Assembly: GCA_947371015.1 (NCBI GenBank)
Contig: CANBNK010000002.1
Location: 1-64,000, forward strand
Direction of reading: 5' to 3'
DNA from: Acetobacteraceae bacterium
GTDB taxonomy: Bacteria > Pseudomonadota > Alphaproteobacteria > Acetobacterales > Acetobacteraceae
Length of the DNA: 64,000 bases
Positions 49,053 to 63,752 of the stretch are shown here, in pieces. The translations under genes were made by a program, and so were the position numbers. The notes under the pieces are model-generated. The model did no database searches, was not told the origin of the DNA, and saw only the letters and a list, made by a program, of their open reading frames with translations. The number at the start of each line of letters is the position of its first letter. The first letter of the stretch is position 1.

Positions 49053-49072
49053 GGCGGTCTCCTTACTGAGGC

Positions 49073-50305
49073 TTAGCTGCGTACCAGGGCACAACCGCCC
49101 TGGTTGATCGGACGGAACGCTTCGCCGGCCGGGGTGGTGCCAAGCACCTTGTAGTAATCCCAGGGGCCCTTGCTCTCGGACGGCTTCTTCACCTCAAGCA
49201 GGTAGCTGGCGTGCAGCTTGCGGCCGTCCGGGCGGATGGTACCGGCGCCGAAGGCGTCGTCCATCGTCGGCATCGCCTTCATGCGGTTCACCACCTCGAC
49301 GCCGCCGGCGGCCTTGGCGGCGGCCACGCCCATATCCTTCACTGTCTTCAGGTAGTGCAGGGTGGCGCTGTAGCAGCCGGCATGGATCATGTTGGGGTAC
49401 AGGTTCGGCATCTTCGGCAGCACGCGGCGGGTGAAGGCGCGCGTGGTCGCGTTCAGGTCCCAGTAGAAGGTCTCGGAACAGACCAGGCCCTGGCCGGTTT
49501 CCAGGCCGATGCTGTGGACATCGGTGATGAACATCAGCAGCGCCGCCAGCTTGGTGCCGCGCCGGGTGATGCCGAACTCGGCAGCCTGCTTCACGCAGTT
49601 GATGGTGTCGCTGCCCGCATTGGCGAAGCCGATGACCTTGGCGCGCGACGCCTGGGCCTGGGTCAGGAAGGCGGCGAAATCCGTGGTGCCCGGGAACGGC
49701 GTGCGCACCGCCCCCAGGATACGCCCGCCGGCCGCCTTGACGAAGTCGCCGGTGTCACGCTCCAGGGCATGGCCGAAGGCGTAGTCCGCGGTGATGAAGA
49801 ACCAGGTGTCGCCGCCCGCCGCCACGGTGGCGCCGCCGGTGGTGCGCGCCAGCTGGTAGGTGTCATAGGCCCAGTGCACGGCCGAGGGGCTGCACTGCGC
49901 GCCGGTCAGGTCGGACGTCGCCGAGCCGACATTGATGGCGACCTTGTTCTTCTCGCGCGAGACATTCTGCACCGCCAGCCCGACCGAGGAGGTCGGGATG
50001 TCCAGGATCATGTCCACGCCCTGGTCGTACCACTGCCGCGCCAGTGCCACGCCGACATCTGGCTTGTTCTGGTGGTCGGCCGCGATCAGTTCGACGTTGA
50101 AGCCCTGGGCGCCGAACTCCTCGATCGCCTGGCGCGCGCAGGCAACGGAACCCGGGCCAGTGTTGTCCTTGTAGGTGCCGGACTGGTCATTCATCACACC
50201 AATACGGATGGTGTTGCCAGCCTGAGCGCGGGCCAGGTGCGGCAGGCTGGAGCCAATGGAGGTGACCGCGAAGGCACCCAGCATCGAACGGCGTGACATC
50301 GTCAT
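49073..50305 (-). CDS. ABC transporter substrate-binding protein, tandem copy 2
   Basis: A 410-residue paralogue of its two neighbours, with a Tat-like signal peptide (MTMSRRSMLGAFAVTSIGSS), then NTIRIGVMNDQSGTYKDNTG and AADHQNKPDVGVALARQWYD. The loop after the first strand (QSGTYKDNTGPGS) differs most from the other copies, which suggests a different ligand. Two start ATGs lie two codons apart. Confidence 0.93.
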   Translation of the reverse strand: MTMSRRSMLGAFAVTSIGSSLPHLARAQAGNTIRIGVMNDQSGTYKDNTGPGSVACARQAIEEFGAQGFNVELIAADHQNKPDVGVALARQWYDQGVDMILDIPTSSVGLAVQNVSREKNKVAINVGSATSDLTGAQCSPSAVHWAYDTYQLARTTGGATVAAGGDTWFFITADYAFGHALERDTGDFVKAAGGRILGAVRTPFPGTTDFAAFLTQAQASRAKVIGFANAGSDTINCVKQAAEFGITRRGTKLAALLMFITDVHSIGLETGQGLVCSETFYWDLNATTRAFTRRVLPKMPNLYPNMIHAGCYSATLHYLKTVKDMGVAAAKAAGGVEVVNRMKAMPTMDDAFGAGTIRPDGRKLHASYLLEVKKPSESKGPWDYYKVLGTTPAGEAFRPINQGGCALVRS

Positions 50306-50361
50306 CTTGGTGGTCCCCAGGTTTGCGCCCGCTTCTGCGGGTCGCGCTTGGTTGGCGTGGT

Positions 50362-51597
50362 TCAGGCGGGAATCAGGCTGCAGCCACCGGCGGCCAGAGG
50401 ACGGAACGCCTCGTTGGTCGGGGTGGTACCCAGCAGCTTGTAGTAGTCCCAGGCATGCTTGCTCTCTTCGGGCTTCTTCACCTCGAACAGGTAGGCCGGG
50501 TGAATCTTGCGACCGTCGGCGCGGATGCTGCCCTGGCCGAAGCAGTCGTCGCTGGTCGGCAGCGCCTTCATGCGGTTCACCGCCTCCACGCCGCTGGCCT
50601 TGGCGGCGGCCACGCCCATCGCCTTCACCGCCTTCAGGTAGTGCAGCGTCCCGGCGTAGCAGCCGGCCTGGGTCATGGTCGGATAGATCGCGCCCATGTT
50701 CGGCCGCACCTTGGCGGTGAAGCGGCGGGTCGCCTCGTTCATGTCCCAGTAGAAGGTCTCGGTGCAGACTAGGCCATTGGCGGTGGCCAGCCCCAGCGAA
50801 TGCACATCGGTCAGGAACATCAGCAGCGCCGCCAGCTTGGTGCCGCGGCGCGTGATGCCGAACTCGGCCGCCTGCTTGATGCAGTTGATGGTGTCGGTGC
50901 CGGCATTGGCGAAGCCGATGACCTTGGCGCGCGACGCCTGCGCCTGCACCAGGAAGCTGGAGAAATCCGTGGTGCCCGGGAAGGGCGAGCGCACCGCGCC
51001 CAGTACCCGGCCGCCGGCTTCCTTGACGAAATTGCCGGTGTCGCGTTCCAACGCGTGGCCGAAGGCGTAGTCCGCGGTGATGAAATACCAGCTGTCGCCG
51101 CCGGCCTTCACCATGGCGGCGCCGGTGGAATGCGCCAGCATCCAGGTGTCATAGGTCCAGTGCACCGTGTTGGGCGAGCACTTCGCCCCGGTGAGGTCCG
51201 ACGTCGCCGCGCCGCTGTTGATGTGGACCTTGTTCTTCTCGCGGCAGATGTCGTTCACCGCCAGCGCCACCGAGGAAGTGGTCACATCCAGCAGCACATC
51301 CACGCCAGACTGGTCGATCCATTGCCGGGCGATGTTGCTGCCGACATCCGGCTTGTTCTGATGGTCGGCGTGCAGCACTTCGACGTTGAAGCCCTGGTTG
51401 CCGAAATCCGCCACTGCCTGGCGCGCGCAGACCGCCGCGGTTTCGCCGGCGATGTCCCGGTACATGCCCGAGCCATCGTTCAGCACACCGATCTTGATGG
51501 TATTGGCCGCCTGGGCGCGGGCGCTGCGGAACGGCAGGCCACCCAGCGCCGGCAAGATCGCGGCGGCACCCAGCAGGCTGCGACGATCAAGCGCCAT
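50362..51597 (-). CDS. ABC transporter substrate-binding protein, tandem copy 1
   Basis: A 411-residue paralogue, the first of the three receptors in transcription order. Its signal sequence is MALDRRSLLGAAAILPALGG, followed by NTIKIGVLNDGSGMYRDIAG and HADHQNKPDVGSNIARQWID. It shares ITRRGTKLAALLMFLTDVHS with the other copies. GGAGAGAG precedes the ATG. It lies 14 bases after the LivF-type ATPase gene. Confidence 0.93.
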   Translation of the reverse strand: MALDRRSLLGAAAILPALGGLPFRSARAQAANTIKIGVLNDGSGMYRDIAGETAAVCARQAVADFGNQGFNVEVLHADHQNKPDVGSNIARQWIDQSGVDVLLDVTTSSVALAVNDICREKNKVHINSGAATSDLTGAKCSPNTVHWTYDTWMLAHSTGAAMVKAGGDSWYFITADYAFGHALERDTGNFVKEAGGRVLGAVRSPFPGTTDFSSFLVQAQASRAKVIGFANAGTDTINCIKQAAEFGITRRGTKLAALLMFLTDVHSLGLATANGLVCTETFYWDMNEATRRFTAKVRPNMGAIYPTMTQAGCYAGTLHYLKAVKAMGVAAAKASGVEAVNRMKALPTSDDCFGQGSIRADGRKIHPAYLFEVKKPEESKHAWDYYKLLGTTPTNEAFRPLAAGGCSLIPA

Positions 51598-51611
51598 GCT
51601 CTCTCTCCATC

Positions 51612-52316
51612 TCAAACGCCAAGGTACTGGTGCAGCCGGTCCAGCGAACCGAGCAACTCGTCATTGCCGACCATGTCCACCACGCGGCCATGCTCCATGA
51701 CATAATGGCGGTCCGCCACGGTCTGGGCGAAGCGGAAGTTCTGCTCCACCAGCAGCACAGTAAAGCCGCGCGACTTGATCTCGCGGATCATGGCGCCGAT
51801 CTGCTGCACGATGACGGGTGCCAGGCCCTCGGTCGGCTCATCCAGCAGCAGCAGCTTGGCGCCGGTGCGCAGGATGCGCGCAATGGCCAGCATCTGCTGT
51901 TCGCCGCCCGAAAGCTTGGTGCCCTGGCTGCCAGCGCGTTCCTTCAGGTTGGGGAACAGCTTGTAGATGGTGTCCAGGTCCAGCCCACCCTCGGCCACCA
52001 CCGGGGGCAGCATCAGGTTCTCGGTTACGTTCAGGCTGGCGAAGATACCGCGTTCTTCCGGGCAATAGCCAATGCCGGTGCGCGCGATCAGGTCCGGCCG
52101 CAGCCCCACCATCTCCCGCCCATTGTAGCGGATGCTGCCCTTCCGGCGCCCCACCAGGCCCATGATCGCCCGCAGCGTCGTGGTCTTGCCGGCGCCATTG
52201 CGGCCAAGCAGCGTCACCACCTCGCCCGGATGCACCTCCAGCCCGACGCCGTGCAGGATGTGGCTTTCGCCGTACCAAGCCTCGAGGTCCTTGATGTCGA
52301 GCAGCGGGCTAGACAT
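51612..52316 (-). CDS. Second LivF-type ABC ATP-binding protein
   Basis: A 234-residue ATPase with Walker A GRNGAGKTT, signature LSGGEQQMLAIARILRTGAK, Walker B LLLLDEPTEGLAP and LLVEQNFRFA at the switch position, as in LivF. The ATG of MSSPLLDIKDLEAWYG overlaps the LivG-type stop by eight bases; an in-frame TTG two codons earlier is less likely. Confidence 0.94.
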   Translation of the reverse strand: MSSPLLDIKDLEAWYGESHILHGVGLEVHPGEVVTLLGRNGAGKTTTLRAIMGLVGRRKGSIRYNGREMVGLRPDLIARTGIGYCPEERGIFASLNVTENLMLPPVVAEGGLDLDTIYKLFPNLKERAGSQGTKLSGGEQQMLAIARILRTGAKLLLLDEPTEGLAPVIVQQIGAMIREIKSRGFTVLLVEQNFRFAQTVADRHYVMEHGRVVDMVGNDELLGSLDRLHQYLGV

Positions 52317-53085
52317 GCGCAACAGCCCCCGAAGTCGCCGGATCGGTGCCGAGATAGGCGGCGATCACCTCCGGATTGGCGGAGACGCTGGCGTAGTCGC
52401 CCTCGGCCAGCACCTGGCCGCGCGCGAGCACGGTGATGCGATCGCACAGGCCTTGGACAACCTTCAAATTATGCTCCACCAGCAGCACGGTGCGACCGAC
52501 CGCAACGCGCTTCACCAACGCCACGATCCGATCCACGTCGTCATGCGTCATGCCGGCCGTCGGTTCGTCCAGCAGCATCATCTCAGGGTCCATCGCCAAG
52601 GTGGTGGCGATCTCCAGCGCGCGCTTGCGGCCATAGGGCAGGCTGCCGGCCAGCTCGCTCACGTAGTCGGTCAGGCCGACCTCTCCCAGCAGTTGCATGG
52701 CCCGGTCGTCATACTGCCGCAGCAGCGATTCGCTGCGCCAGAAGTCGAAGCTGCCGCCGCGTTGCCGCTGCAGCGCCACGCGTACGTTTTCCAGCACCGT
52801 GATGTGCGGGAACACCGCCGAGATCTGGAAGCTTCGGATCAACCCCAGCCTGGCCACCTGGGCCGGCTTCATGCGGGTGATGTCGCGACCATTATAGGTA
52901 ATCTTGCCGCGCGTCGGCGGCAGGAAGTTGGTCAGCAGGTTGAAACAGGTGGTCTTGCCGGCGCCGTTGGGGCCGATAAGCGCATGGATGCTGCCGCGCT
53001 GGACCTTCAGCGCCACGTCGCTCACCGCGACGAAGCCCCGAAACTCCTTGGTCAGTCCTTCGGTTTCCAGGATGGTGTCTGACAC
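52309..53085 (-). CDS. Second LivG-type ABC ATP-binding protein
   Basis: A 258-residue ATPase starting at GTG, first gene of the second branched-chain-type operon. It has Walker A GPNGAGKTT, the LivG insert FDFWRSESLLRQYDDRAM, a signature altered to LPYGRKRALEIATTLA, Walker B MLLDEPTAGMT and switch His LLVEHNLKVV. The operon order is ATPase, ATPase, three receptors, LivH, LivM. Its promoter must lie in the 167 bases upstream, in which no other gene is seen. Confidence 0.94.
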   Translation of the reverse strand: MSDTILETEGLTKEFRGFVAVSDVALKVQRGSIHALIGPNGAGKTTCFNLLTNFLPPTRGKITYNGRDITRMKPAQVARLGLIRSFQISAVFPHITVLENVRVALQRQRGGSFDFWRSESLLRQYDDRAMQLLGEVGLTDYVSELAGSLPYGRKRALEIATTLAMDPEMMLLDEPTAGMTHDDVDRIVALVKRVAVGRTVLLVEHNLKVVQGLCDRITVLARGQVLAEGDYASVSANPEVIAAYLGTDPATSGAVAHV

Positions 53086-53252: not shown

Positions 53253-53837
53253 CTAACGCAACCCATCCTTGCCTTCTATCTGGGCAATCGTCAGCCCACC
53301 GATGCGGGGCAACGGCCTTCCGCCCACGGTCAAGGCAACGCAGACCAGGATCTCATCGGCCCGCGGCGCGTCCGGCACCCGCGCTTCCATCGCGTCGAAG
53401 TGGCTGCGCACGAAGGCGGCATCCTTGTGGCCCAGCGGCACGTCGATGGCGGTGCCCGGCCCGCCCGACTTCTTCGCCGAGGGAATCAGCGCCGCGCCGC
53501 CGCCCAGCGCCGCCCGCACCGGTGCGCCCATCTTTGGGTGCAGCAGCGCGGCGGCGTGCTCCAACTCGCCATTCTCCCCGACCACGGCGGCCTTGCCGTA
53601 GCTCTCCACCGCCCTCCCCGGCACGCCCAGCGCGGCAATGGCGCGCGCAACCAGCAGGGCGCCCAACTCCTCGCCCTGCGCCACCAGCTCGGCCAGGTCT
53701 TCCTGGTAGCGTCCAGCGAAGGGGTTGCGGATGACGGCGCAGGCCACCGCCCGGCGAATCGGCGGGGAAACGGTGCGCCCCATCTCCAGGTGGGTCTCGT
53801 CCAGCAGCGTCACCAGCTTGCGGATCATGGCGGGCAT
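53253..53837 (-). CDS. Amino acid synthesis family protein (AA_synth, DUF1185)
   Basis: A 194-residue protein of the AA_synth (formerly DUF1185) family: IRKLVTLLDETHLEMGRTVS at the start, AVIRNPFAGRYQEDL, AALLHPKMGAPVRAALGGG, and HKDAAFVRSHFDAMEARVPD. The family has a chorismate-mutase-like fold by structure and no proven reaction. Its members recur in degradation clusters for N-containing ring compounds (from memory). It is 15 bases downstream of the enamidase-like gene, so it is likely the second gene of that unit. AGGAG precedes the ATG. Confidence 0.85.
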   Translation of the reverse strand: MPAMIRKLVTLLDETHLEMGRTVSPPIRRAVACAVIRNPFAGRYQEDLAELVAQGEELGALLVARAIAALGVPGRAVESYGKAAVVGENGELEHAAALLHPKMGAPVRAALGGGAALIPSAKKSGGPGTAIDVPLGHKDAAFVRSHFDAMEARVPDAPRADEILVCVALTVGGRPLPRIGGLTIAQIEGKDGLR

Positions 53838-53852
53838 CGGTGGCGCTCCTCT

Positions 53853-55052
53853 CTAATGCTTAAGCAGTTCGGGCACGCGCTCGGCCGGGGGCGTGTTGCG
53901 GCTTCGCCCACAGCGCACGGCGCCATCGATCATCACCATGCCGACCCCCGGGATATCGCCCAGCTCGATGCTGTGCAGCATGTCCCGCCCGGCGGAATGC
54001 TGCGCGCGGTCCAGGAAGACCAGGTCGGCGGCGCGGCCCACTTCCAGCAGCCCGCCATCCAGGTTGCGGATTCGCGCGGTATTGCCGGTGGCCAGGGCAA
54101 TGGCCTGCGCTGCAGGTATACGCCCGAAGCCGGCCAGCAGCGAGATCAGCCGCAGGATGCCCAGCGGCTGCACCCCGGACCCCGCCGGGCTGTCGGTGCC
54201 CAGGATGACTCGCCCCAGCACGCCCAAATCCCGCGCCGCCTGCACCGCGGCCACCGCCACCCGCTCATTGCCGTTGTGGACAATCTCGATCGCGCGGCTG
54301 CTGCGCTCGCACAGCTCGCAGACATGCGCTTCCGACAGGCTGGTATGCCCACCATTGATATGGCCGATGATGTCGGCATCAGCTTCCAGCACGGTGTCCT
54401 TGTCGATGTAGCCGCTGCCGGGAACGCTGGGGCCGCCGGTATGGATGGTGCTCTGGATGCCGTGCTTGCGCGCCCAGCCGATCATCTCCCGCGCCTCGTA
54501 GCCGGCCTTGACGCTCCCCAGGCCAACCTCCCCCAGCAGGGTCACGCCGGCGGCGGCCAGCTCGGCGAAATCGGCCTCCACCATGCCCTTCTCCAGCACC
54601 GGGGCGCCGGCGATCACCTTCACCCCGGCGGGGCGGGCGTTGGAAAAGGCGCGCTGCGCGGTGATGGCCAGCGCCTTCAGGCCCACGATGTCCTTCGGCC
54701 GTCCGGGCAGATGCACCTCCCCGGCGCTCACCATGGTGGTGACCCCACCATGCAGGAAGCTCTCGATCCAACCCATCTGGTTCTGCCGCGGGGTCCAATC
54801 GCCGAACACCGGATGGACATGGCTGTCGATCAGCCCCGGCGCCACGGCGCAGCCATGCGCGTCGATCACCATGTCGAACGGCCCATGCGCGATCAGCTCA
54901 TGCCCACGGCCGAGCGCGGCGATCACGCCGTCCTGGATCACCAGCGCATCCGCCTCCAGCAGCGGCCGGTCCACATCGCCCGAGAGCATCAGCCCGGCAT
55001 TGCGCACCAGGGTGCGGCCCTGCTGCGGGCCGGCGGTTGGTTCCAGCGCCAT
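53853..55052 (-). CDS. Amidohydrolase family protein, enamidase-like
   Basis: A 399-residue metal-dependent hydrolase. Predicted ligands, in the amidohydrolase order, are His78 and His80 in SHVHP, Glu175 in LLGEVGLG, His204 in STIHTGG, His231 in GHINGG and Asp287 in GTDSPAGSG. This set fits a binuclear centre such as that of enamidase (Fe/Zn), which hydrolyses 1,4,5,6-tetrahydro-6-oxonicotinate to 2-formylglutarate and ammonia in Eubacterium barkeri. Calling it a ring-opening enamidase rests on this pattern plus the nearby hydroxynicotinate-reductase-like gene; other cyclic amides are possible. It diverges from the MarR gene. Confidence 0.82.
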   Translation of the reverse strand: MALEPTAGPQQGRTLVRNAGLMLSGDVDRPLLEADALVIQDGVIAALGRGHELIAHGPFDMVIDAHGCAVAPGLIDSHVHPVFGDWTPRQNQMGWIESFLHGGVTTMVSAGEVHLPGRPKDIVGLKALAITAQRAFSNARPAGVKVIAGAPVLEKGMVEADFAELAAAGVTLLGEVGLGSVKAGYEAREMIGWARKHGIQSTIHTGGPSVPGSGYIDKDTVLEADADIIGHINGGHTSLSEAHVCELCERSSRAIEIVHNGNERVAVAAVQAARDLGVLGRVILGTDSPAGSGVQPLGILRLISLLAGFGRIPAAQAIALATGNTARIRNLDGGLLEVGRAADLVFLDRAQHSAGRDMLHSIELGDIPGVGMVMIDGAVRCGRSRNTPPAERVPELLKH

Positions 55053-55114
55053 GGGTCGGGTCTCCTTCAGCCTCAATGCTAGCCTCGGGCCGACCGTAAG
55101 CCTAGAAACGAAGC

Positions 55115-55546
55115 ATGGGAACGTCCCCCGCCCCCGACTACCAGCTGGAAGACCAGGTCGGCCACCTGCTGCGGCGCGCCTACCAGCGCCACCTGGCGCT
55201 GTTCCAGGGCATCATGGGGGAGGACGGGCCGACCTCCATGCAGTTCGCCGCGCTGGTCACGCTGTGGCGCCAGGGGCCGCTCTCGCAGAACCTGCTGGGC
55301 CGCGGCCTGGCGATGGACCCGCCGACGGTGAAGGGCGTGGTCGCCCGACTGATGGCGCGCGGCTGGGTCACCCGCCACCGCGACCCCGCCGATGCCCGGC
55401 TGCTGCGGGTGGCGCTGACGCCGGCCGCCGAGGCCGCCCTGCCCGGCTGGGTGGAGAAGGCCCGCGGCATCACCGCCGCCACGCTCGCGCCGCTCGGCCC
55501 GGCCGATGCCGCGCGGGTCGGCACGCTGCTGCGCCGGATGGAATAG
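55115..55546 (+). CDS. MarR family transcriptional regulator
   Basis: A 143-residue winged-helix protein with LEDQVGHLLRRAYQRHLALF as the first dimer helix, recognition region LLGRGLAMDPPTVKGVVARL, and wing WVTRHRDPADARLLRVALTP. MarR proteins usually repress neighbouring genes until an aromatic ligand binds. It lies 62 bases from the divergent enamidase-like gene and just upstream of the molybdenum-hydroxylase genes, so it probably controls both. Confidence 0.92.
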   Translation: MGTSPAPDYQLEDQVGHLLRRAYQRHLALFQGIMGEDGPTSMQFAALVTLWRQGPLSQNLLGRGLAMDPPTVKGVVARLMARGWVTRHRDPADARLLRVALTPAAEAALPGWVEKARGITAATLAPLGPADAARVGTLLRRME

Positions 55547-55562
55547 ACTTGGCGGGGTGCCG

Positions 55563-55586
55563 GCAGGCTGGCTATCGTTAGCCTGC
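55563..55586. promoter_or_regulatory. Putative MarR operator before the molybdenum-hydroxylase genes
   Basis: GCAGGCT (55563-55569) and AGCCTGC (55580-55586) form a 7-base inverted repeat with a 10-base spacer. An inner pair GGCTA/TAGCC (55570-55583) strengthens it. The segment TTAGCCTGCAAACAA matches, at 12 of 15 bases, TAAGCCTAGAAACGA just before marR (about 55096-55110), suggesting one regulator reads both. Confidence 0.5.
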
Positions 55587-55606
55587 AAACAATCGGCTGC
55601 CCCAGC

Positions 55607-56446
55607 ATGGATGGCTATCTCCGCCCCCGCACCCTCGACGACGCGCTGGCCATGCTGGCGGCGACCCCCGGCTGCCAGGTGCTGGCCGGCGGTACGGATG
55701 TCTTCCCCGCGCGCACCGGCGCCGAGGTCTGGCTGAAGCGCGACAACCGCCCACTGCTGGACCTTTCTGGCATCGCAGCCCTTGCCGGCATTACCGAAAC
55801 CGCGACGGGGTGGCGCATCGGCGCGCTGGCCACCTGGACGGAGTTCTGCGCCACGCAACTGCCACCAGCTTTCGACGGGCTGAAGCAGGCGGCACGCCAG
55901 GTCGGTGGCGCCCAGGTACAGAATCGCGGCACGCTGTTGGGCAATCTCTGCAACGCCTCCCCGGCTGCGGACGGTGCGCCGCCGCTGCTGACGCTGGACG
56001 CGCAGGTGGAACTCAGCGGCCCCGCCGGCGGGCGGGTGCTGCCGCTGGCGGCGTTCCTGCTCGGCAACCGCCGCACCGCGCTGGCGCCCGGGGAGATCGC
56101 CACCGCACTGCTGCTGCCGCACCCGCCTGAAGGGGCGATGGGCGGCTTCATGAAGCTGGGCGCGCGCAGCCACCTGGTCATCTCCATCGCCATGGTCGCC
56201 GGCACGCTGGCACTGGAAGGCGGCGTGGTGCGCCATGCCCGGCTTGCGGTGGGCGCCTGTTCCGCCACCGCCCAACGCCTGCCGCTGGCCGAGGCCGCCC
56301 TGCTGAACGCCCCGCCCGACCCCGCCCGCCTGCTGCCGGAACACCTGGCCGCGCTGACCCCCATCGACGACGTCCGCGCCAGCGCCGCCTATCGCCGGCA
56401 CGCCGCGCTGGTGCTGCTGCAGCGCCTGGTGGAGAGCCTGGCATGA
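55607..56446 (+). CDS. FAD-binding subunit of a xanthine-dehydrogenase-family hydroxylase
   Basis: A 279-residue CoxM/XdhB-type FAD protein. FAD contacts are seen as VLAGGTDVFP at about residues 24-33 and QVQNRGTLLGNLCNASPAAD near 103-122, with MGGFMKLGARSHLVISIAMV in the C-terminal half. It passes electrons from the Mo/Fe-S subunit to an acceptor. Its ATGA stop/start overlap with the next gene shows a tight two-subunit complex. Confidence 0.93.
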   Translation: MDGYLRPRTLDDALAMLAATPGCQVLAGGTDVFPARTGAEVWLKRDNRPLLDLSGIAALAGITETATGWRIGALATWTEFCATQLPPAFDGLKQAARQVGGAQVQNRGTLLGNLCNASPAADGAPPLLTLDAQVELSGPAGGRVLPLAAFLLGNRRTALAPGEIATALLLPHPPEGAMGGFMKLGARSHLVISIAMVAGTLALEGGVVRHARLAVGACSATAQRLPLAEAALLNAPPDPARLLPEHLAALTPIDDVRASAAYRRHAALVLLQRLVESLA

Positions 56447-59118
56447 CAATCGCACTCACCCTCAACGGCGCCGCCGAGCTGGTCGCCGCCGCCCCCGCCA
56501 CCCGCCTCTCCGCCGCGTTGCGCGACGCCTGCGGCCTCACCGGCACCAAGGTGGGCTGCGACACTGGTGACTGCGGCGCCTGCACCGTGCTGCTGGACGG
56601 CGCCCAGGTTTGTGCCTGCCTGGTGCCGCTGGCCCAGGCCGAGGGGCGCGCCGTGACCACGGTGGAAGGCCTGGCCGCCACCCCGCTGGGTGCCGCGTTG
56701 CAGGCCGCCTTCCACGCCCATGGCGCGGCGCAGTGCGGCATCTGCACCCCGGGCATGCTGATGGCGGCGACCGAGTTGCTGGCCACCACGCCGCACCCGG
56801 ATGAAGCACAGGTGCAGGCCGCGCTGGGCGGCGTGCTCTGCCGCTGCACTGGCTATCGTCGCATCATCGCCGCGGTCTTGGCGGCGGGCAGCGCCACCAC
56901 AGCGTCGGCCGCCGCGGTGCTGGCCCTCGGCACCGCCACCGCCCCGCTGGCCGGCGCGGTCGGCGCGGTCGGCGAAAGCATCCCCCGCCTGGACGGCCTG
57001 CCCAAGCTCAACGGCACCGAGCGCTTCGGCGCCGACGACGCCCCCGCGGACGCGCTGTGGCTGCGCCCGATCCGCAGCCCCTACGCGCATGCCCGCTTCA
57101 GCATCGGCGACGCATCCCACCTGCCCGTACGCCTGCTGACCGCCGCCGATATCCCCGGCCGCAACGGCTTCGGCATCTACCCGGACATCAAGGACCAGGC
57201 AGTGTTCGCGCCTGGCCTGGCGCGCTATCGCGGGGATTGCGTGGCGGCACTGCTCGGCGAGCGTGCAGCGGTGGAGGCCGTGCGCTGGGACGACCTGCCG
57301 ATCACCTGGCAGGAACTGCCACCCCTCACCGCCACCGCCGCGCCCGGCGGCCCCGCCCTGCATGAACGCTGGCCGGACAACATCCTGACCACCGGCCGCC
57401 TGCGCAGCGGCGAGACCCCGCCTCCTGCCACGCACATCGCGCAGGGCGAATGGACCACCGGCTTCGTCGAGCACGCCTATATCGAACCCGAGGCCGGCTG
57501 GGCCGAGCGCCATGGCGAAACCATTCACGTGCATGGCTGCACCCAGGCGCCCTACATGGACCGCGAGGAGGTCGCAGGCGTCCTAGGCATCGCACCCGAG
57601 GCCGTCCGCATCATCCCCAGCGCCTGCGGCGGCGGTTTTGGGGGTAAGCTGGACGTCTCCTTTCAGCCCATGGTCGCGGTAGCCGCTTGGCTGACCGGCC
57701 GCCCGGTGCGCGCAGTGTGGTCGCGCGGCGAAAGCCTGGCCTCCTCCACCAAGCGCCACCCCGCCAGCATCCAGGCCAGCGCCGGCTGCGACGCCGAGGG
57801 CCGGCTGACCAGCTTCGAGTTCGAGGCCGACTACGACACCGGCGCCTATGCCAGCTGGGGGCCAACCGTGGCCGGCCGCGTGCCGGTGCATTGCATGGGA
57901 CCGTATCGCCTGCCCTTCGTGCACAGCCAGGCGCGGGCGGTGCTGACCAACAACCCGCCCAGCGGCGCCTTCCGCGGCTTCGGCGTGCCGCAGGCGGCCA
58001 TTGCGCAGGAAATGCTGTGGGACCAGCTGGCGGACGCCGCCGGCATGGACCGGCTGGAGTTCCGCCTGCTGAACGCGCTGCGCAACGGCGATACCACCAA
58101 TACCGGGCAACGCCTGGACCACAGCGTCGGCCTGGTGGAATGCCTGGAGGCGCTGCGCCCGCACTGGCACGCGCTGCGTGCCGCCCGCCGCACCACCGGT
58201 CGCACGCGTGGCGGCGTCGGCGTTGCCTGCATGTGGTACGGCATCGGCAACACCGGCATGTCCAACCCCTCCACCATGCGGCTGACCCTGGCGCCCGATG
58301 GCCGACTGACCTTCCACAACGGCGCCGTGGATATCGGCCAGGGCAGCACCACCGTGCTGGCCCAGATCGCCGCCGAGGCCCTCGGCCTGCCGGTATCCGC
58401 CCTGCACATGGTCCTCTACGACACCGGCCTGACCGCCGATGCCGGCAAGACCAGCGCCTCTCGCCAAACTTTTGTGAGTGGCCGCGCGGCCCAGGCCGCC
58501 GGCGCGGCGCTACGCGGCGAGATCCTCCGCCGGGCCAATGCCGGCGCCGAGGCCCGCCTCACCCTCTCGGACGGCACGCTGCGCGTGAACGGCGAGGCGC
58601 TGCGGCTGGACAGCACGCTGGAGGGGCTCGGCAGCTACGATCCACCGACTGTGCCGCTGGACGCGGATGGCCAGGGCATCCCCTACGCCACCTATGGCTT
58701 CGCCGCGCAACTCGCGGCGCTTGAGGTGGATATGGACCTCGGCACCATCCACCTGCAAAAAATCGTCGCCGCGCATGACGTCGGCCGCGCCATCAACCCG
58801 TTGCTCGTGCAGGGCCAGGTGGAGGGCGGCATCGCCCAGGGCATCGGCCTGGCGCTGATGGAAGAATACCTGCCCGGCCGCACCGAGAACCTGCACGACT
58901 ACCTGATCCCCACCATCGGCGACGTGCCTGAGATCGAGACCATCCTGATCGAGGCGCGCGAGCCGCTCGGCCCCTTCGGCGCCAAGGGCATCGGCGAGCC
59001 GGCGCTGGTGCCGACCGCCCCGGCTATCCTCTCGGCCATCCGCGACGCCACCGGCGCCACGCTGCGCCGCGTGCCCGCTTTGCCCCATCGCGTGCTGGAG
59101 GCTCTTCGTGGCCACTGA
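56443..59118 (+). CDS. Fused [2Fe-2S] and molybdopterin subunit of a xanthine-dehydrogenase-family hydroxylase
   Basis: An 891-residue chain that combines the usual small and large subunits. Residues 1-150 hold two [2Fe-2S] clusters, with Cys39, Cys44, Cys47, Cys57 and Cys98, Cys101, Cys133, Cys135 as candidate ligands. From about 175 the large molybdenum domain follows, with SACGGGFGGKLDVSFQPMVA, SGAFRGFGVPQAAIAQEMLW, and the catalytic base Glu852 in GIGEPALVPTAPAI. Such enzymes hydroxylate N-heteroaromatics using water. A nicotinate- or purine-type substrate is suggested by context only. No selenium-type split of the Mo subunit is present, unlike the E. barkeri enzyme. Confidence 0.93.
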   Translation: MTIALTLNGAAELVAAAPATRLSAALRDACGLTGTKVGCDTGDCGACTVLLDGAQVCACLVPLAQAEGRAVTTVEGLAATPLGAALQAAFHAHGAAQCGICTPGMLMAATELLATTPHPDEAQVQAALGGVLCRCTGYRRIIAAVLAAGSATTASAAAVLALGTATAPLAGAVGAVGESIPRLDGLPKLNGTERFGADDAPADALWLRPIRSPYAHARFSIGDASHLPVRLLTAADIPGRNGFGIYPDIKDQAVFAPGLARYRGDCVAALLGERAAVEAVRWDDLPITWQELPPLTATAAPGGPALHERWPDNILTTGRLRSGETPPPATHIAQGEWTTGFVEHAYIEPEAGWAERHGETIHVHGCTQAPYMDREEVAGVLGIAPEAVRIIPSACGGGFGGKLDVSFQPMVAVAAWLTGRPVRAVWSRGESLASSTKRHPASIQASAGCDAEGRLTSFEFEADYDTGAYASWGPTVAGRVPVHCMGPYRLPFVHSQARAVLTNNPPSGAFRGFGVPQAAIAQEMLWDQLADAAGMDRLEFRLLNALRNGDTTNTGQRLDHSVGLVECLEALRPHWHALRAARRTTGRTRGGVGVACMWYGIGNTGMSNPSTMRLTLAPDGRLTFHNGAVDIGQGSTTVLAQIAAEALGLPVSALHMVLYDTGLTADAGKTSASRQTFVSGRAAQAAGAALRGEILRRANAGAEARLTLSDGTLRVNGEALRLDSTLEGLGSYDPPTVPLDADGQGIPYATYGFAAQLAALEVDMDLGTIHLQKIVAAHDVGRAINPLLVQGQVEGGIAQGIGLALMEEYLPGRTENLHDYLIPTIGDVPEIETILIEAREPLGPFGAKGIGEPALVPTAPAILSAIRDATGATLRRVPALPHRVLEALRGH

Positions 59119-60523
59119 TCGTACGGCCCTGTTCGGCGCCCGCGAGGGCAATGAGGGCATCATCCGCTGCGACGCCTGCCCGGTGCTGTGCCGCATCCGC
59201 CCCGGCCGCGCCGGCGCCTGCGCCCGCTACGCCAACAAGGACGGCGACCTGATCCGCACCGATCCCCTCGTGCTGCTGGAATCCGGGGAAAAAAGCTTCG
59301 TCACCGGCATCGGCAGCGGCACCACCTACCCGGACTACAAGCCCGCGCCTTTCATCGTGGGCTCCACGCATGAGGGCGTGGACACCGTTACGGTCGTCAC
59401 TGAGGGCATGTTCAGCTACTGCGGCCTCAAGGTGAAAATCGACACCGACCGCCACCTGGGCGACGAGACCGCCGCCGTGCGCGTGAACGGCGAGCAGATC
59501 GGCCACGTCACCTCGGCCGAATACGGCAGCCAGATGCTCTCGCTCGGTGGCGTCCATCACCTGGTCGGCGGCAGCAAGAAGGAGGGCAACGCCACCTGCG
59601 CCGCCATGCTCACCCTGGCCAATCGCGGCGCGGTGGAGGTGACGATCGACGGCGGCGCCACCATCCTGTTGCAGGCCGGGACCCAGCCCATCGTCAACGG
59701 CCGGCCGGAAGCGCGGATGCGCGTCGGCTGCGGCAGCGCCGCCATCGGCATCTTCGCCCAGCAATGGCACGGCCATGTGGACGAGGTGATCGTGGTGGAC
59801 GACCACATCACCGGCGTGCTGAGCGAGCACCAGGCCGGCAAGTGCCTGGACATCCCGCCTGCCGGCATCCGCGTCCGTGGCCGGCGCTCCACCCCCGGGC
59901 GCTACTTCCAGGTGGCCAACCCCGGCACCGGCTGGGGCGGCACCGACATCACCGAGCCGCTATCCATCATCGAAAGCATCGACCCCAAGGTGGCCCGCCC
60001 CGGCCTGCGCCTGCTGCTGACCAGCACCACCGGGGAGGACGCGCTATACTGCGTGCTGGACGAGGAACTGAAGCCGCGCGAAGCCGCCATGCCACCCGCG
60101 GTGCAACTGGTGGTGGACCGCATCGGCGAGAACTGCGAACCGGCGCTGACCAGCATACTGTTCATGGCCGGTGCCGGCGGCTCGCTGCGCGCCGGGATCA
60201 CGGAAAACCCGATCTTGCTGACCCGCGCGGTACAGGCCGGCCAGGTGCGGGTGACCATGGGTGGCGCGCCCTGCTACCTCTGGCCCGGCGGCGGCATCAC
60301 CATCATGGCGGATGTGCTGAGCATGCCGCGCGACAGTTTTGGGTATGTACCCACGCCCGCGCTGGTGGCGCCCTTGGAGTTCACGCTGAACGCCGCGACC
60401 TACGCCGCGTTGGGCGGGCATATGCAGCACATCCAGCCCGCCGCGCGCATCCTGGCCGACTACGGCGCCGCCGCCCGCCACGACGCGGCTCTGCCGGAAA
60501 ACCCGTGGCCCACAGCGCCGTAA
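59108..60523 (+). CDS. 6-hydroxynicotinate reductase-like Fe-S flavoprotein
   Basis: A 471-residue protein resembling Hnr of Eubacterium barkeri, which reduces 6-hydroxynicotinate to 1,4,5,6-tetrahydro-6-oxonicotinate with ferredoxin electrons and carries covalent flavin, one [2Fe-2S] and two [4Fe-4S] clusters. Here an N-terminal Cys motif C-x2-C-x3-C-x9-C (Cys21, 24, 28, 38; IIRCDACPVLCRIRPGRAG) is followed by Cys105, 164, 208, 246, 315, 343 and 389, enough for several clusters. Length is close to Hnr. It overlaps both neighbours. The substrate is inferred from the gene set. Confidence 0.85.
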   Translation: MATDRTALFGAREGNEGIIRCDACPVLCRIRPGRAGACARYANKDGDLIRTDPLVLLESGEKSFVTGIGSGTTYPDYKPAPFIVGSTHEGVDTVTVVTEGMFSYCGLKVKIDTDRHLGDETAAVRVNGEQIGHVTSAEYGSQMLSLGGVHHLVGGSKKEGNATCAAMLTLANRGAVEVTIDGGATILLQAGTQPIVNGRPEARMRVGCGSAAIGIFAQQWHGHVDEVIVVDDHITGVLSEHQAGKCLDIPPAGIRVRGRRSTPGRYFQVANPGTGWGGTDITEPLSIIESIDPKVARPGLRLLLTSTTGEDALYCVLDEELKPREAAMPPAVQLVVDRIGENCEPALTSILFMAGAGGSLRAGITENPILLTRAVQAGQVRVTMGGAPCYLWPGGGITIMADVLSMPRDSFGYVPTPALVAPLEFTLNAATYAALGGHMQHIQPAARILADYGAAARHDAALPENPWPTAP

Positions 60524-61350
60524 TCCTGCCCGACGGCCGCCTGCATTTGCAGGAAGGCCCGATCGACATCGTCATCGGCCTCGCCGGCACCCGCGCTGCA
60601 ATGGCGGAGGCCCGCAGCCGCGCGGAAGCCGTCTTCGCCGGGCTGCTCGGCGCGCTGGCGGCGGAACTGCCGTTGCTGCGCACGCCGCTGGCGGTGGACA
60701 TGCCGGAGGCGCGGCATCCGGTGGCGCAGCGCATGGTTGCGGCGTGCTGGCCGCACCGGCGCGGCTTCATCACCCCCATGGCCGCCGTCGCTGGCGCCGT
60801 CGCCGAGCATATCCGCGACGCGCTGGCGGAAACGCCGGACCTGGCCACCGCCTATGTCAACAATGGCGGCGACATCGCGCTGCACCTGGCCCCCGGCCAG
60901 CGCCTGCATATCGGTCTGGTCCGCCACCTGGCCCACGCCGCGCCGGAGGGCCTGGTACGGGTGCGGGCCGAAGACCCGGTTCGCGGCATCGCCACGTCAG
61001 GCTGGCCCGGCCGCAGCTTCTCGCTCGGCATCGCCGATGCGGTGACGGTGCTGGCGCGGGATGCCGCCGCGGCCGATGCTGCCGCCACCGTCATCGCCAA
61101 TGCCTGCAACGTGGCCCACCCCGCCATCAGCCGCGCCCCGGCGCGCAGCCTGGACCCCGACAGCGACCTGGGTGCGTTGCTGGTCACCATCGCGGTCGGC
61201 CCGCTGCCGGCGGAAGCCGTCGCCGCCGCGCTCGCGGCCGGGGAGGCGATGGCGGAAGCCCTGCTGGCGCGCGGCCTGATCCACGCCGCGCTGCTGGCCG
61301 TGGGCGACGAACTCCGCACGGTGGGCACGCCGCTGCTGAGCCATGGCTGA
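60505..61350 (+). CDS. UPF0280 family protein with ApbE-like motifs
   Basis: A 281-residue protein starting at GTG inside the preceding reductase gene. Blocks in the order of ApbE flavin transferases are visible: YVNNGGDIAL (117-126, NxGGD), GIATSGWPGRSFSLGIADAV (161-180, the ATSG-type substrate strand) and DAAATVIANACNV (191-203, the D-x-x-A/T helix). ApbE attaches FMN covalently to Ser/Thr of target proteins. Since Hnr is reported to hold covalent flavin, this gene is a good candidate for its maturation, which is inference. UPF0280 itself has no proven function. Confidence 0.8.
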   Translation: MAHSAVILPDGRLHLQEGPIDIVIGLAGTRAAMAEARSRAEAVFAGLLGALAAELPLLRTPLAVDMPEARHPVAQRMVAACWPHRRGFITPMAAVAGAVAEHIRDALAETPDLATAYVNNGGDIALHLAPGQRLHIGLVRHLAHAAPEGLVRVRAEDPVRGIATSGWPGRSFSLGIADAVTVLARDAAAADAAATVIANACNVAHPAISRAPARSLDPDSDLGALLVTIAVGPLPAEAVAAALAAGEAMAEALLARGLIHAALLAVGDELRTVGTPLLSHG

Positions 61351-61360
61351 TCGTCTTCAC

Positions 61361-61431
61361 CGTATACGGCAGGCCGCCGCATCAGCCCCAACGGCGGCAA
61401 AAACCGATTGACGGGGCCATCGCCGTATACG
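61361..61431. promoter_or_regulatory. Two CGTATACG palindromes 63 bp apart upstream of the haem-oxygenase-fold gene
   Basis: CGTATACG occurs at 61361-61368 and 61424-61431, extended to CGTATACGGC in opposite orientations. The 63-bp distance equals six helical turns, placing both on one DNA face. They fill the 115-base gap after the UPF0280 gene and suit a looping repressor. Confidence 0.45.
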
Positions 61432-61465
61432 ACGATGCCCCACCCCACCCGCAGGAGAGCCCGCG

Positions 61466-62197
61466 ATGACCGCGCTGATGAACCAGGACGAATTCCGTAC
61501 CGCGCTGGAAAACGCCATCAAGGGGCGCAGCGCGAACACCTCGCCGTTCAGCGTCGCCTGGGCCTCGGGCAAGCTCTCGCGTGAGCATCTCTGCCGCTGG
61601 GCCGAGAACCACTACCACTATGTCGGCCCCTTCGCCGACTACCTCGGCTACGTCTATGGCCGCATGCCCGCGCAGTACCAGGAGGCCAAGGACTTCCTGC
61701 TGGCCAACATGTACGAGGAAGAGATCGGCGGCGACCGCCACACCGACCTGCTGATCCGCTTCGCCGAGTCCTGCGGCACCACGCGCGAGCGGGTGAAGGA
61801 CGAGAACAACATGTCCGCCACCACCCGCGCCCTGCAGGCCTGGTGCTACTGCGTGGCCATGCGCGAAGACCCGATCGTCGCCGTCGCCGGCCTGGTCGTC
61901 GGCCTGGAATCGCAGGTCCCCAGCATCTACCGCCGCCAGACGCCGACGCTGCGCGAGAAGTACGGCTTCACCGATGAGGAGGTCGAGTTCTTCGACCTGC
62001 ACATCGTCTCCGACGAGATCCATGGCGAGCGCGGCTACCAGATCGTGCTGGAGCACGCGACCACGGTCGAGTTGCAGCAGAAGTGCCTGAAGATCTGCGA
62101 GATCGGCGCCGAAATGCGGCTACTGTACACGACGGCGCTGTACAACGACTACGTGGCCAAGGACCTCAGCCTGGCCGAGCTGGACATGGCCGCCTGA
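61466..62197 (+). CDS. Haem-oxygenase-fold di-iron (HDO/CADD/PqqC-like) protein
   Basis: A 243-residue all-helical protein beginning MTALMNQDEFRTALENAIKG, with CRWAENHYHYVGPFADYLGY near 43-62. The pattern Glu85-x6-His92, Glu148, His179-x3-Asp183-x2-His186 reproduces the six metal ligands known for Chlamydia CADD (Glu81/His88/Glu142/His174/Asp178/His181). This points to an O2-using haem-oxygenase-like di-iron enzyme rather than cofactor-free PqqC. The reaction is unknown. It sits in the ring-reduction cluster behind its own operator-like repeats, and a strong terminator covers its stop codon. Confidence 0.85.
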   Translation: MTALMNQDEFRTALENAIKGRSANTSPFSVAWASGKLSREHLCRWAENHYHYVGPFADYLGYVYGRMPAQYQEAKDFLLANMYEEEIGGDRHTDLLIRFAESCGTTRERVKDENNMSATTRALQAWCYCVAMREDPIVAVAGLVVGLESQVPSIYRRQTPTLREKYGFTDEEVEFFDLHIVSDEIHGERGYQIVLEHATTVELQQKCLKICEIGAEMRLLYTTALYNDYVAKDLSLAELDMAA

Positions 62198-62239
62198 TTT
62201 TGTGGGCAACCAGGTTGCCCGCAAAATCAGGCCTTTTCC
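62192..62239 (+). terminator. Strong intrinsic terminator overlapping the stop of the haem-oxygenase-fold gene
   Basis: GCCTGATTTTGTGGGCAACC pairs with GGTTGCCCGCAAAATCAGGC (62192-62232) over about 18 base pairs with one T-G wobble, followed by CTTTTCC. The stop codon (62195-62197) lies in the left arm. It should end the transcript here, making the ferredoxin genes a separate or attenuated unit. Confidence 0.85.
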
Positions 62240-62345
62240 GCCCGCAAGCGGCGGGCGCGGCCAACCGGCCGCTAGCCTTATGCGAGATTGGTGGCGGGCG
62301 CCTCGGCCCGGGGCTTGGCCCCGTGCCGCATTCATGAGGAACCGC

Positions 62346-62642
62346 ATGCCCTCCGTCACCTTCCGCGTCGGCGACCAGGCCTTCACCGAGGAGGTGGCGG
62401 CCAACACCAACCTGGTGGTCCGCGCCGGCATCAAGAAGTTCCCCTTCCCGCACCTGAAGTACAAGTGCGGCATGGGCAAGTGCGGCACCTGCGCCAGCCG
62501 TGTACTGGCCGGGGCCGAACACCTGCCCGAGCCGAATTGGAAGGAAGTGAAGGTGCTGGGCGACCGCCTGGCGCAGGGCTGGCGGCTGGGCTGCCAGCTC
62601 TGGCTGCATCAAGACCTTGAACTGACGCAGGACCGCGCCTGA
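62346..62642 (+). CDS. Plant-type [2Fe-2S] ferredoxin, first copy
   Basis: A 98-residue ferredoxin beginning MPSVTFRVGDQAFTEEV. The cluster ligands are seen in KYKCGMGKCGTCASRVLAG (C-x4-C-x2-C) with the fourth Cys in RLGCQLWLHQD. It likely carries electrons to or from the oxidoreductases of the cluster, for example to the hydroxynicotinate-reductase-like protein. The second of two in-frame ATGs (62346, not 62334) is chosen because AGGA sits five bases before it. Confidence 0.9.
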   Translation: MPSVTFRVGDQAFTEEVAANTNLVVRAGIKKFPFPHLKYKCGMGKCGTCASRVLAGAEHLPEPNWKEVKVLGDRLAQGWRLGCQLWLHQDLELTQDRA

Positions 62643-62959
62643 TGTACGCCATCCTCACCAGCAAGCCCGGCCAGTACCGCACGGAGATCGCCGCCGGCGT
62701 GACCCCGGTGGAAGCCTATGACTACGTGTTCTGCGGCGCCGTCCGCGCCCGCTTCGTCATTGCGGAATTGGGCGATGCCAAGCGCCTGCACGTCATCGAC
62801 GAAGGCACGCCGCCCACCGTCAACAAGGTACCCGTGAAGTTCTTCCCCAGCTTCGCCACGCTGGAAGCCGCGCGGCGCGAGTTGCAGCACCTGGTGAAGT
62901 TCGGCTCCATGCAGGTGGCGCTGGACCCCGTCCCGCTACCGCGTGCGGTTGCCGCCTGA
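62642..62959 (+). CDS. Unknown 105-residue protein between two ferredoxin genes
   Basis: This protein begins MYAILTSKPGQYRTEIAAGV and contains EAYDYVFCGAVRARFVIAEL, KRLHVIDEGTPPTVNKVPVK and a helical LEAARRELQHLVKFGSM. I do not recognise it. It has one Cys and a mixed alpha/beta pattern, with no signal peptide or membrane segment. Its start overlaps the first ferredoxin stop and its stop overlaps the second ferredoxin start (ATG in TGATG), so the three are made together; an electron-transfer accessory role is possible. Confidence 0.8.
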   Translation: MYAILTSKPGQYRTEIAAGVTPVEAYDYVFCGAVRARFVIAELGDAKRLHVIDEGTPPTVNKVPVKFFPSFATLEAARRELQHLVKFGSMQVALDPVPLPRAVAA

Positions 62960-63276
62960 TGCCGCAGGTCACCTTCCTGACCAATGCCGGCAAGGTCGCC
63001 CCCGCCCCGGAGGAGCCGACCAGCCTGCTGCGCATCTCCATCCGCGAGAAAGGCGGCATTCCCTTCAAATGCGGTGGCGGCCTCTGCGGCACCTGCAAAT
63101 GCCTGATCGAAGTGGGCCGCGAGAACACCGACGCGATCAAGCCGAAGGAGCGCAAGCACCTGAGCGAAGAACAATTCGTCCAAGGCTGGCGCATGGCCTG
63201 CCAGACCTTCGTTCTCGGCGATGTCAGCGTCTCCTGGCCGCCACCCCCGCCCAAGCCCGGAGCCCCGCGCCCATGA
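62959..63276 (+). CDS. Plant-type [2Fe-2S] ferredoxin, second copy
   Basis: A 105-residue ferredoxin beginning MPQVTFLTNAGKVAPAPEEP, with cluster ligands in PFKCGGGLCGTCKCLIEVG (C-x4-C-x2-C, plus one extra Cys after the third ligand) and a fourth in RMACQTFVLG. A Pro-rich tail ends it. It is only distantly like the first copy, so the two may serve different partners. It overlaps the HbpS-like gene by four bases. Confidence 0.9.
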   Translation: MPQVTFLTNAGKVAPAPEEPTSLLRISIREKGGIPFKCGGGLCGTCKCLIEVGRENTDAIKPKERKHLSEEQFVQGWRMACQTFVLGDVSVSWPPPPPKPGAPRP

Positions 63277-63752
63277 AAACAGCCCTGAAGCTGGAAGCCC
63301 GCGAGGCCCGCGCCATGGTCGCCGCCGCGCTGGCGGAAGCCGCGCGCCTCGGCGTGCCACAGACGTGCTGCGTGACGGATGAAGGCGGCTTCCCGATCGT
63401 ACTGGAACGCATGGACGGCGCCCGCGTCACCGGCCCGCAGATCAGCTGGAACAAGGCTTTTACGAGTGCCGGCCACAAGCGCAGCACCCACCTGTTCAAC
63501 ACCCCGCCCAATGGGCCGGCGCTACCGGGCAACGAGGCCTTCGGCATCCAATGGAGCTTCGAGGGCAAGTTTGCCGTCTTCGTCGGAGGCTTCCCGGTGG
63601 TGGTGAATGGCGAGGTCGTCGGCGGCATCGGCCTGTCCGGCGGCAATGGCGAACAGGACATCGCCTGCGGCGTCGCCGGGCTGAAGGCGCTGGCCGAACT
63701 GCTGGCGCCGGAAGGCCACACCGTGCTGGTGGCGGCGGATATCAAGAAGTAG
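63273..63752 (+). CDS. GlcG/HbpS family heme-binding-like protein
   Basis: A 159-residue protein with the GlcG/HbpS core: EAREARAMVAAALAEAARLG, then ISWNKAFTSAGHKRSTHLFN, GFPVVVNGEVVGGIGLSGG and EQDIACGVAGLKAL. Family members bind haem or cobalamin, or act as small accessory enzymes; no catalytic assignment is possible. It starts within the second ferredoxin's stop codon (ATGA). Confidence 0.86.
   Translation: MKTALKLEAREARAMVAAALAEAARLGVPQTCCVTDEGGFPIVLERMDGARVTGPQISWNKAFTSAGHKRSTHLFNTPPNGPALPGNEAFGIQWSFEGKFAVFVGGFPVVVNGEVVGGIGLSGGNGEQDIACGVAGLKALAELLAPEGHTVLVAADIKK

Follow-up and report, generated by a model that had tools for sequence, protein, structure and literature searches.

The last 16 kb of the 64,000-nucleotide stretch of Acetobacteraceae DNA analyzed here (contig CANBNK010000002.1; the whole stretch is termed the window) carries homologs of the enzymes of reductive nicotinate breakdown, followed by a heme-oxygenase-fold protein and two ferredoxins, and this locus raises the question whether these neighboring genes constitute one catabolic pathway or two. 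The first-pass annotation had read them as a single aerobic ring-reduction pathway; the genes that it reported were confirmed as real and lie where it had placed them, and one further gene, for an HbpS-like protein (63273-63752), was absent from its list. The single-pathway interpretation is partly supported: a reductive cluster is present, and it is one of two systems, belonging to a type for which an aerobic route was already published (PMC3511419). The explanation favored here, with a probability of about three in four, combines a nicotinate cluster, in which UPF0280 would load the flavin of 6-hydroxynicotinate reductase (Hnr), with a separate, GntR-controlled oxygenase module for a pyridine carboxylate.

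The first system (53253-61350) is arranged around a MarR regulator gene (55115-55546, plus strand; PF01047). To its left, on the minus strand, lie the genes for an enamidase (53853-55076), which was aligned along its whole length with the solved enamidase 2vun (PDB; E = 1.9e-111, residues 20-404), for an AA_synth protein (53253-53837; PF06684, 3.3e-73), and for a Liv-type transporter (47832-53085; three LivK-like genes, LivF and LivG, named from their translations). To its right, on the plus strand, follow the flavin adenine dinucleotide (FAD) subunit of a molybdenum hydroxylase (55607-56446; family match), the fused 2Fe-2S/molybdenum subunit of this hydroxylase (56443-59118; family match and matches to structure chains), Hnr (59108-60523; identified by the names of its relatives and by its tree), and UPF0280 (60520-61350; NF003322, 352.9 bits against a cut-off of 290). 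Between 55607 and 61350 every start codon region overlaps the stop of the preceding gene, and the order FAD subunit, molybdenum subunit, Hnr and UPF0280 is not a matter of chance, since it is found again in many genomes. The hydroxylase belongs to the xanthine dehydrogenase family and is related to the nicotinate dehydrogenase of the Eubacterium barkeri type; the fused subunit matches chains 3hrd_A (2e-73) and 3hrd_B (4.9e-63), and the hydroxylase was also matched to chain 3hrd_D. Rather than grouping with an unrelated pathway, the window Hnr falls into a clade of nine rows (Shimodaira-Hasegawa-like approximate likelihood ratio test, 99) in a quick tree of 113 rows, from which the short L166 was left out; all members of this clade have an enamidase gene. 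The matches to 2vun and 3hrd and the Hnr clade support a cluster of hydroxylase, Hnr and enamidase as in E. barkeri, and together with the Liv-type transporter these genes most likely represent a reductive nicotinate (vitamin B3) cluster.

The substrate, the order of steps, and the roles of UPF0280, AA_synth and the MarR protein are predicted from gene content and homology. Nicotinate would be taken up, probably by the Liv-type transporter, and then hydroxylated at C6 by the FAD and fused iron-sulfur/molybdenum enzyme; Hnr would reduce the resulting 6-hydroxynicotinate to 1,4,5,6-tetrahydro-6-oxonicotinate, whose ring the enamidase would open to yield 2-formylglutarate and ammonia. AA_synth would act on a late intermediate, and the MarR protein would regulate the genes of this system; an inverted repeat with 7-base arms between the MarR and FAD subunit genes (55563-55586) is a possible MarR operator.

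The ring-reduction route, discovered in E. barkeri, has also been reported for the aerobe Azorhizobium. Strain SG-6C has an Hnr with 42% identity to the E. barkeri enzyme, encoded in a cluster that is linked to nicotinate breakdown and that A. caulinodans and further proteobacteria share (PMC3511419). The Azorhizobium/SG-6C cluster resembles the window in its hydroxylation, Hnr and third-step genes, its transporter, two conserved proteins without assigned function, and its aerobic hosts. Plasmid records also carry the name: among 26 records with an Hnr relative (60-67% identity), 17 call it 6-hydroxynicotinate reductase or hnr, and in the other nine it is termed hypothetical or its gene is unlisted. 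From the publication and these names it follows that the aerobic reductive route is not new and, because the main pathway is known, that the cluster itself is ordinary. A plasmid of Sulfitobacter pontiacus (NZ_CP049345.1) combines the FAD and fused molybdenum subunits, Hnr, UPF0280, AA_synth, MarR, a Liv-type transporter and an enamidase that is 61% identical to that of the window; it differs in its additional ferredoxin-NADP reductase, second AA_synth and aromatic-ring dioxygenase subunit, and in having no diiron module in this stretch. The nicotinate fermentation cluster of E. barkeri, which Alhapel and colleagues are said to have described in 2006, likewise contains an FAD-containing molybdenum hydroxylase, Hnr and enamidase; its hydroxylase has a separate iron-sulfur chain and two molybdenum chains (3hrd), whereas the window has a fused subunit. 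UPF0280 and AA_synth are not known from the E. barkeri scheme.

The distribution of these two proteins was followed in two sets of Hnr loci. Set A comprises the 80 best-matching loci out of at least 590 Hnr relatives; it leans toward the kin of the window, and 31 of its 80 stretches are shorter than 20 kb. Set B comprises the 31 non-window genomes with Hnr from a 398-genome phylum sample, after two short matches (G103 and G072; approximately 36 residues covered) had been dropped; in G016 the Hnr is split over two frames, and in G367 it contains one internal TGA. Within the phylum sample, Hnr occurs in 32 genomes, the window genome included, and UPF0280 occurs in the same 32, with no copy found in the remaining 366; the 32 genomes represent 16 genera and are not independent, and the search scored a limited number of candidates per genome (up to six for UPF0280), by which distant copies may escape. 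UPF0280 is present at 79 of the 80 Hnr loci of set A, the sole locus without it (L107) being a 7.5-kb contig, and at all 31 of set B; in each of the 110 loci that have UPF0280, it lies behind hnr on the same strand, with a median gap of 29.5 bases, and in 95 of them the gap ranges from -60 to 400 bases. AA_synth accompanies Hnr at 58/80 loci of set A and 30/31 of set B. UPF0280 and AA_synth, taken in the first-pass annotation as additions to the pathway, are thus its usual members.

The exception-free co-occurrence in the sample gives UPF0280, a family without assigned function, a testable role as Hnr partner or flavin transferase; its name was not found in the literature searched. A profile built from 38 UPF0280 sequences (out of 106 candidates) matches the solved chain 2o34 (1.9e-11), and 24 of the 38 members match Pfam ApbE at E ≤ 1, the best at 5e-5. 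Aligned by hhalign with Ftp of Escherichia coli, which is annotated as FAD:protein FMN (flavin mononucleotide) transferase, UPF0280 gave an E value of 0.00096, with GGD, TSG and the AD-x3-T region common to both; in ApbE, AD-x3-T holds the metal. UPF0280 is read as a remote relative of ApbE that is genetically tied to Hnr. This likeness, the co-occurrence, and the covalent flavin that E. barkeri Hnr presumably carries, taken together, suggest that UPF0280, which the favored explanation treats as an obligate partner of Hnr and most likely an ApbE-type enzyme, flavinylates Hnr or loads it with flavin. As a caveat, several observations speak against this role: the window UPF0280 matches Pfam ApbE at E = 0.017 and 15.1 bits, under the cut-off of 25.6; the hhalign probability for UPF0280 and Ftp is 22%; the HxIDP stretch of Ftp is unmatched in UPF0280; and the idea that Hnr bears an acceptor motif of the classical ApbE type was rejected, as no conserved one is evident. 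A SAT-like stretch of Hnr has A in the window and T in 11 of the 14 rows of one Hnr alignment (A1; the window and 13 others) and in 29 of the 36 rows of a larger one (A2).

The window Hnr is 61-71% identical to the other 13 sequences of A1; its closest named relative, at 96% identity, is that of another Acetobacteraceae bacterium (L039). It belongs to no NCBIfam family and to no Pfam family above cut-off, and residues 105-141 give a sub-threshold hint of Pfam GCV_T_C. Of its 11 cysteines, seven are invariant in A1 and eight in A2; E. barkeri Hnr presumably carries three iron-sulfur clusters, for which ligation by cysteines throughout would need 12. A fold model (predicted local distance difference test, pLDDT, 84.8) found no match in PDB by Foldseek at E ≤ 0.001; in a second comparison the best hit, to the T-protein of the glycine cleavage system (Z = 3.9 over 62 residues), agrees with the GCV_T_C hint, and no fold claim for Hnr follows from these model comparisons. 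After approximately residue 57, between the N-terminal cysteine-rich part and the remainder, the window Hnr is approximately 25 residues shorter than all 13 other sequences of A1, which share a longer linker; the L039 match has the length of the window protein.

The second system (61466-63752, plus strand) is separated from UPF0280 by a gap of 115 bases. It starts with the heme-oxygenase-fold diiron oxygenase (61466-62197; PF14518, 1.1e-36), followed by a first 2Fe-2S ferredoxin (62346-62642, with the start recomputed in an open reading frame that opens at 62202), a small conserved protein (62642-62959), a second 2Fe-2S ferredoxin (62959-63276; family match), and, as the last gene of the run, the HbpS-like protein (PF03928). 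The small protein matches no family, and its single-sequence model is poor (mean pLDDT 59.3). Diiron oxygenases of this fold use the ligand motif E-x6-H, E, H-x3-D-x2-H; the oxygenase keeps all six ligands (E85, H92, E148, H179, D183 and H186), aligned in nine sequences, and scores 99.4 bits against the CADD family, below the cut-off of 200. Starting at its stop codon and upstream of the first ferredoxin gene lies a hairpin (62192-62232) whose 19-bp stem contains a single G-U-type mismatch and whose loop spans 3 bases; no T-run follows it.

Three GTATAC sites occur in the window, and two of them lie inside the 115-base gap ahead of the oxygenase, as predicted operators of its operon (61360-61370 and 61423-61433, plus strand); the whole genome contains 32 such sites. 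GTATAC palindromes are also found at related modules in Cupriavidus and Caballeronia, where six plasmid records hold the oxygenase at 82-86% identity together with, where read, a ferredoxin, the small protein, a second ferredoxin, the HbpS-like protein, an aldehyde dehydrogenase, a ferredoxin reductase and a GntR regulator; no Hnr was found in these stretches. In Caballeronia sp. SBC2 (pSBC2-4) and on the megaplasmid of Cupriavidus metallidurans CH34, the ferredoxin and oxygenase genes are divergently oriented, and aldehyde dehydrogenase, reductase and OCD genes are present. Of the proteins of the window genome, the one most similar to the Caballeronia GntR (47% identity) is encoded on another contig, C100 (12611-13243); GTATAC sites precede its gene and a neighboring divergent transporter-like gene, which was named from its sequence and matches no Pfam or NCBIfam family. 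These sites yielded the extended pattern YYGTATACGRC, which a genome-wide count places at just four positions: one pair ahead of the oxygenase gene and a further pair at the promoters of the GntR and transporter-like genes on C100. The GntR from C100 would control the oxygenase operon through its two operators. As a caveat, the count of the pattern by itself does not exceed that of the backward control (four against five); the positions alone carry weight.

The second run of genes is inferred to be a separate operon and not a step of the nicotinate system, and the puzzling presence of a heme-oxygenase-fold protein and ferredoxins finds its explanation in a separate GntR-controlled oxygenase module; the neighborhood is therefore not to be read as one pathway. 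Where the first-pass annotation had counted the oxygenase, the two ferredoxins and the small protein among the pathway parts, they form a separately regulated module that occurs elsewhere without Hnr.

By analogy, this module most likely hydroxylates a pyridine carboxylate, with dipicolinate as the best candidate. The dip cluster of Alcaligenes faecalis JQ135, attributed to Mu and colleagues (2022), reportedly comprises the oxygenase gene dipD, dipF for a heme-binding protein, dipG for a reductase, and dipJ, dipK and dipL for ferredoxins. As so described, it would resemble the window module in an oxygenase of no classical type, a heme-binding protein, ferredoxins and, with the GntR on C100 as the candidate, a regulator; the Caballeronia module, by its genes and their order, would fit it as well. 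The window module differs in having no adjacent reductase or aldehyde dehydrogenase, and its regulator and transporter-like gene lie in trans. Because these two neighbors are absent, the module is said probably to work like the dip hydroxylase and is not called a member of that group. One point weighs against the analogy: neither a ferredoxin reductase nor an aldehyde dehydrogenase gene was found beside the module (positions 60001-80000 of the contig). Elsewhere in the genome, the aldehyde dehydrogenase has its best relative at 37% identity and the reductase at 2.8e-8 on contig C133; the latter, a weak match in two pieces at 29-40%, was rejected as reductase partner, and its two GTATAC sites lack the operator form. 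Approximately 1.2 kb from the transporter-like gene on C100 lies a gene for an FAD monooxygenase (L176, 8470-9735; NF005720, 530 bits). Alternatively, the GntR-controlled hydroxylase may act on some substrate besides dipicolinate. In favor of this, the Acetobacteraceae form has neither the reductase nor the aldehyde dehydrogenase gene found in Cupriavidus and Caballeronia, with the FAD monooxygenase on C100 instead; yet the oxygenase shares 82-86% identity with its counterparts in the larger modules, where the order of genes would fit the dip cluster, and this alternative, although to be taken seriously, is unlikely. Genome G139 (L159) encodes a more distant sister of the oxygenase (44-46% identity), accompanied by two GTATAC sites and by genes for HbpS-like and GntR proteins; this sister has an insertion ahead of the first histidine ligand, and no ferredoxin relatives were seen nearby.

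Hnr loci at large vary in their make-up. Hydroxylase and ring opener were scored at 80 loci (49 of the 80 in set A and all 31 in set B). The FAD and fused iron-sulfur/molybdenum type of the window accounts for 61 hydroxylases; a NicAB type carrying cytochrome c domains was found at 12, all of them among the 31 loci of set B, and no hydroxylase at seven. As ring opener, 22 loci have the enamidase, 36 have HyuA (a large family, such that some HyuA neighbors may be unrelated), 22 have neither, and none has both; among the 22 with neither, the enamidase lies at or just past the end of the stretch in five (G217, G287, G200, G335 and G339) and on another contig in two (G123 and G194). A genome-wide search of set B found enamidase in 17 of its 31 genomes, the eight of HyuA type all lacking it. 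AA_synth of the window form (at least 55% identity) accompanies all 22 enamidase loci and all 12 NicAB loci, 2 of the 36 HyuA loci and 6 of the 22 remaining ones; L082, L195 and Neorhizobium, with HyuA alongside an AA_synth of the enamidase type, may be exceptions. On the Hnr tree, at least nine changes of ring opener and at least four of hydroxylase are required.

Hydroxylase, Hnr and enamidase homologs might have been recruited for an N-heteroaromatic acid other than nicotinate. Solved aldehyde oxidoreductases outscore 3hrd for the fused hydroxylase, which is not of the NicAB type, and for this reason its substrate is deduced from its neighbors; the window Hnr is tied to that of E. barkeri via the SG-6C Hnr and not by direct comparison; and the fused loci of the enamidase type yielded no nicotinamidase-like gene. 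These points count against nicotinate as the substrate. On the other hand, a common product is suggested since Hnr and enamidase accompany both hydroxylase types; the Hnr tree mixes these types; and a nicotinamidase-like gene, whose query scores 215 bits with the NCBIfam nicotinamidase model (cut-off 174), occurs in 12 of the 80 scored loci and in 10 of the 61 with the fused hydroxylase. Recruitment for another acid is therefore considered improbable, and the reductive nicotinate cluster is retained.

Since enamidase and HyuAB never occur in one stretch among the 80 scored loci, the two suggest themselves as interchangeable ring openers. The HyuA and HyuB queries correspond to Pfam Hydantoinase A and B, and their nearest curated models are caprolactamase subunits (499.6 and 312.1 of 1000 bits, below the equivalog cut-off); HyuAB is proposed as an ATP-dependent, caprolactamase-like ring opener. 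The literature searched yielded nothing on a hydantoinase in nicotinate or 6-hydroxynicotinate breakdown. Neorhizobium has genes annotated nicA, nicB, hnr, hyuA and hyuB, and Fuscovulum combines the fused hydroxylase with HyuAB. The fused hydroxylase and the HyuAB alternative suggest that aerobic reductive nicotinate breakdown comes in interchangeable forms. A more general proposal, in which UPF0280 is a dedicated flavin transferase or loader of Hnr, and hydroxylase and ring opener are swapped around an Hnr-UPF0280 core in a modular and widespread aerobic route, is tentative and rated at somewhat less than even odds. Two loci titled Mesoflavibacter (L079) and Solirubrobacterales (L107) carry Hnr of the proteobacterial type and are perhaps mislabelled or mis-binned.

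The adjacency of the two systems appears to be a peculiarity of the window's genus. At Hnr loci, the oxygenase, small protein and HbpS-like genes were found once among the 80 of set A, at L039, which is genus genome G401 and not independent of the genus count, and at none of the 31 of set B. A same-family set of 14 genomes with the oxygenase at 85% identity or more was drawn from 147 relatives. In the eight of these that lie outside the genus, the module is never adjacent to Hnr, which is absent in two (G422 and G458) and located on another contig in six; a GntR 57-64% identical to that on C100 adjoins the module in five of the eight, and in four the module also lies next to a homolog (66-69%) of the transporter-like gene on C100. 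Two operators are kept in each of five genus relatives. Because regulator and transporter adjoin the module in these other family genomes and the operators are retained here, the module was probably split in this genus, with the oxygenase operon placed behind the nicotinate operon and the regulator and transporter genes elsewhere. That the oxygenase and ferredoxin genes serve the nicotinate pathway, for example by providing electrons for Hnr or by removing oxygen nearby, is very unlikely: the module follows Hnr-UPF0280 in all six genus genomes, which counts against two independent systems and may reflect a functional link, Hnr presumably needs low-potential electrons, and no ferredoxin reductase was seen in the window cluster, though one occurs in 12 of the 80 loci, but the module exists without Hnr or apart from it in the rest of the family, is lacking at the phylum-sample Hnr loci, and was rejected as a pathway part on account of its own operators and regulator.

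Several features of the surroundings complete the picture. In the Liv-type transporter group, three tandem, similar genes for LivK-like binding proteins (47832-51615) are followed by LivF and LivG; LivF/LivG relatives adjoin AA_synth and enamidase in related loci as well. At and past the end of the window, positions 63775-70763 of the same contig (C2) hold genes for a thioesterase, an MFS transporter, a Bug-type binding protein, HMG-CoA-lyase-like, enoyl-CoA hydratase and L-2-hydroxyglutarate-oxidase-like proteins, and a CaiB-type CoA transferase, whose nearest model is succinate-glutarate CoA-transferase (216.9 of 750 bits); these genes could handle glutarate derived from nicotinate. The window genome (G000) encodes a large set of xanthine-dehydrogenase-family hydroxylases, with 21 matches to PF02738 (MoCoBD_1), some of which are fragments of one gene.

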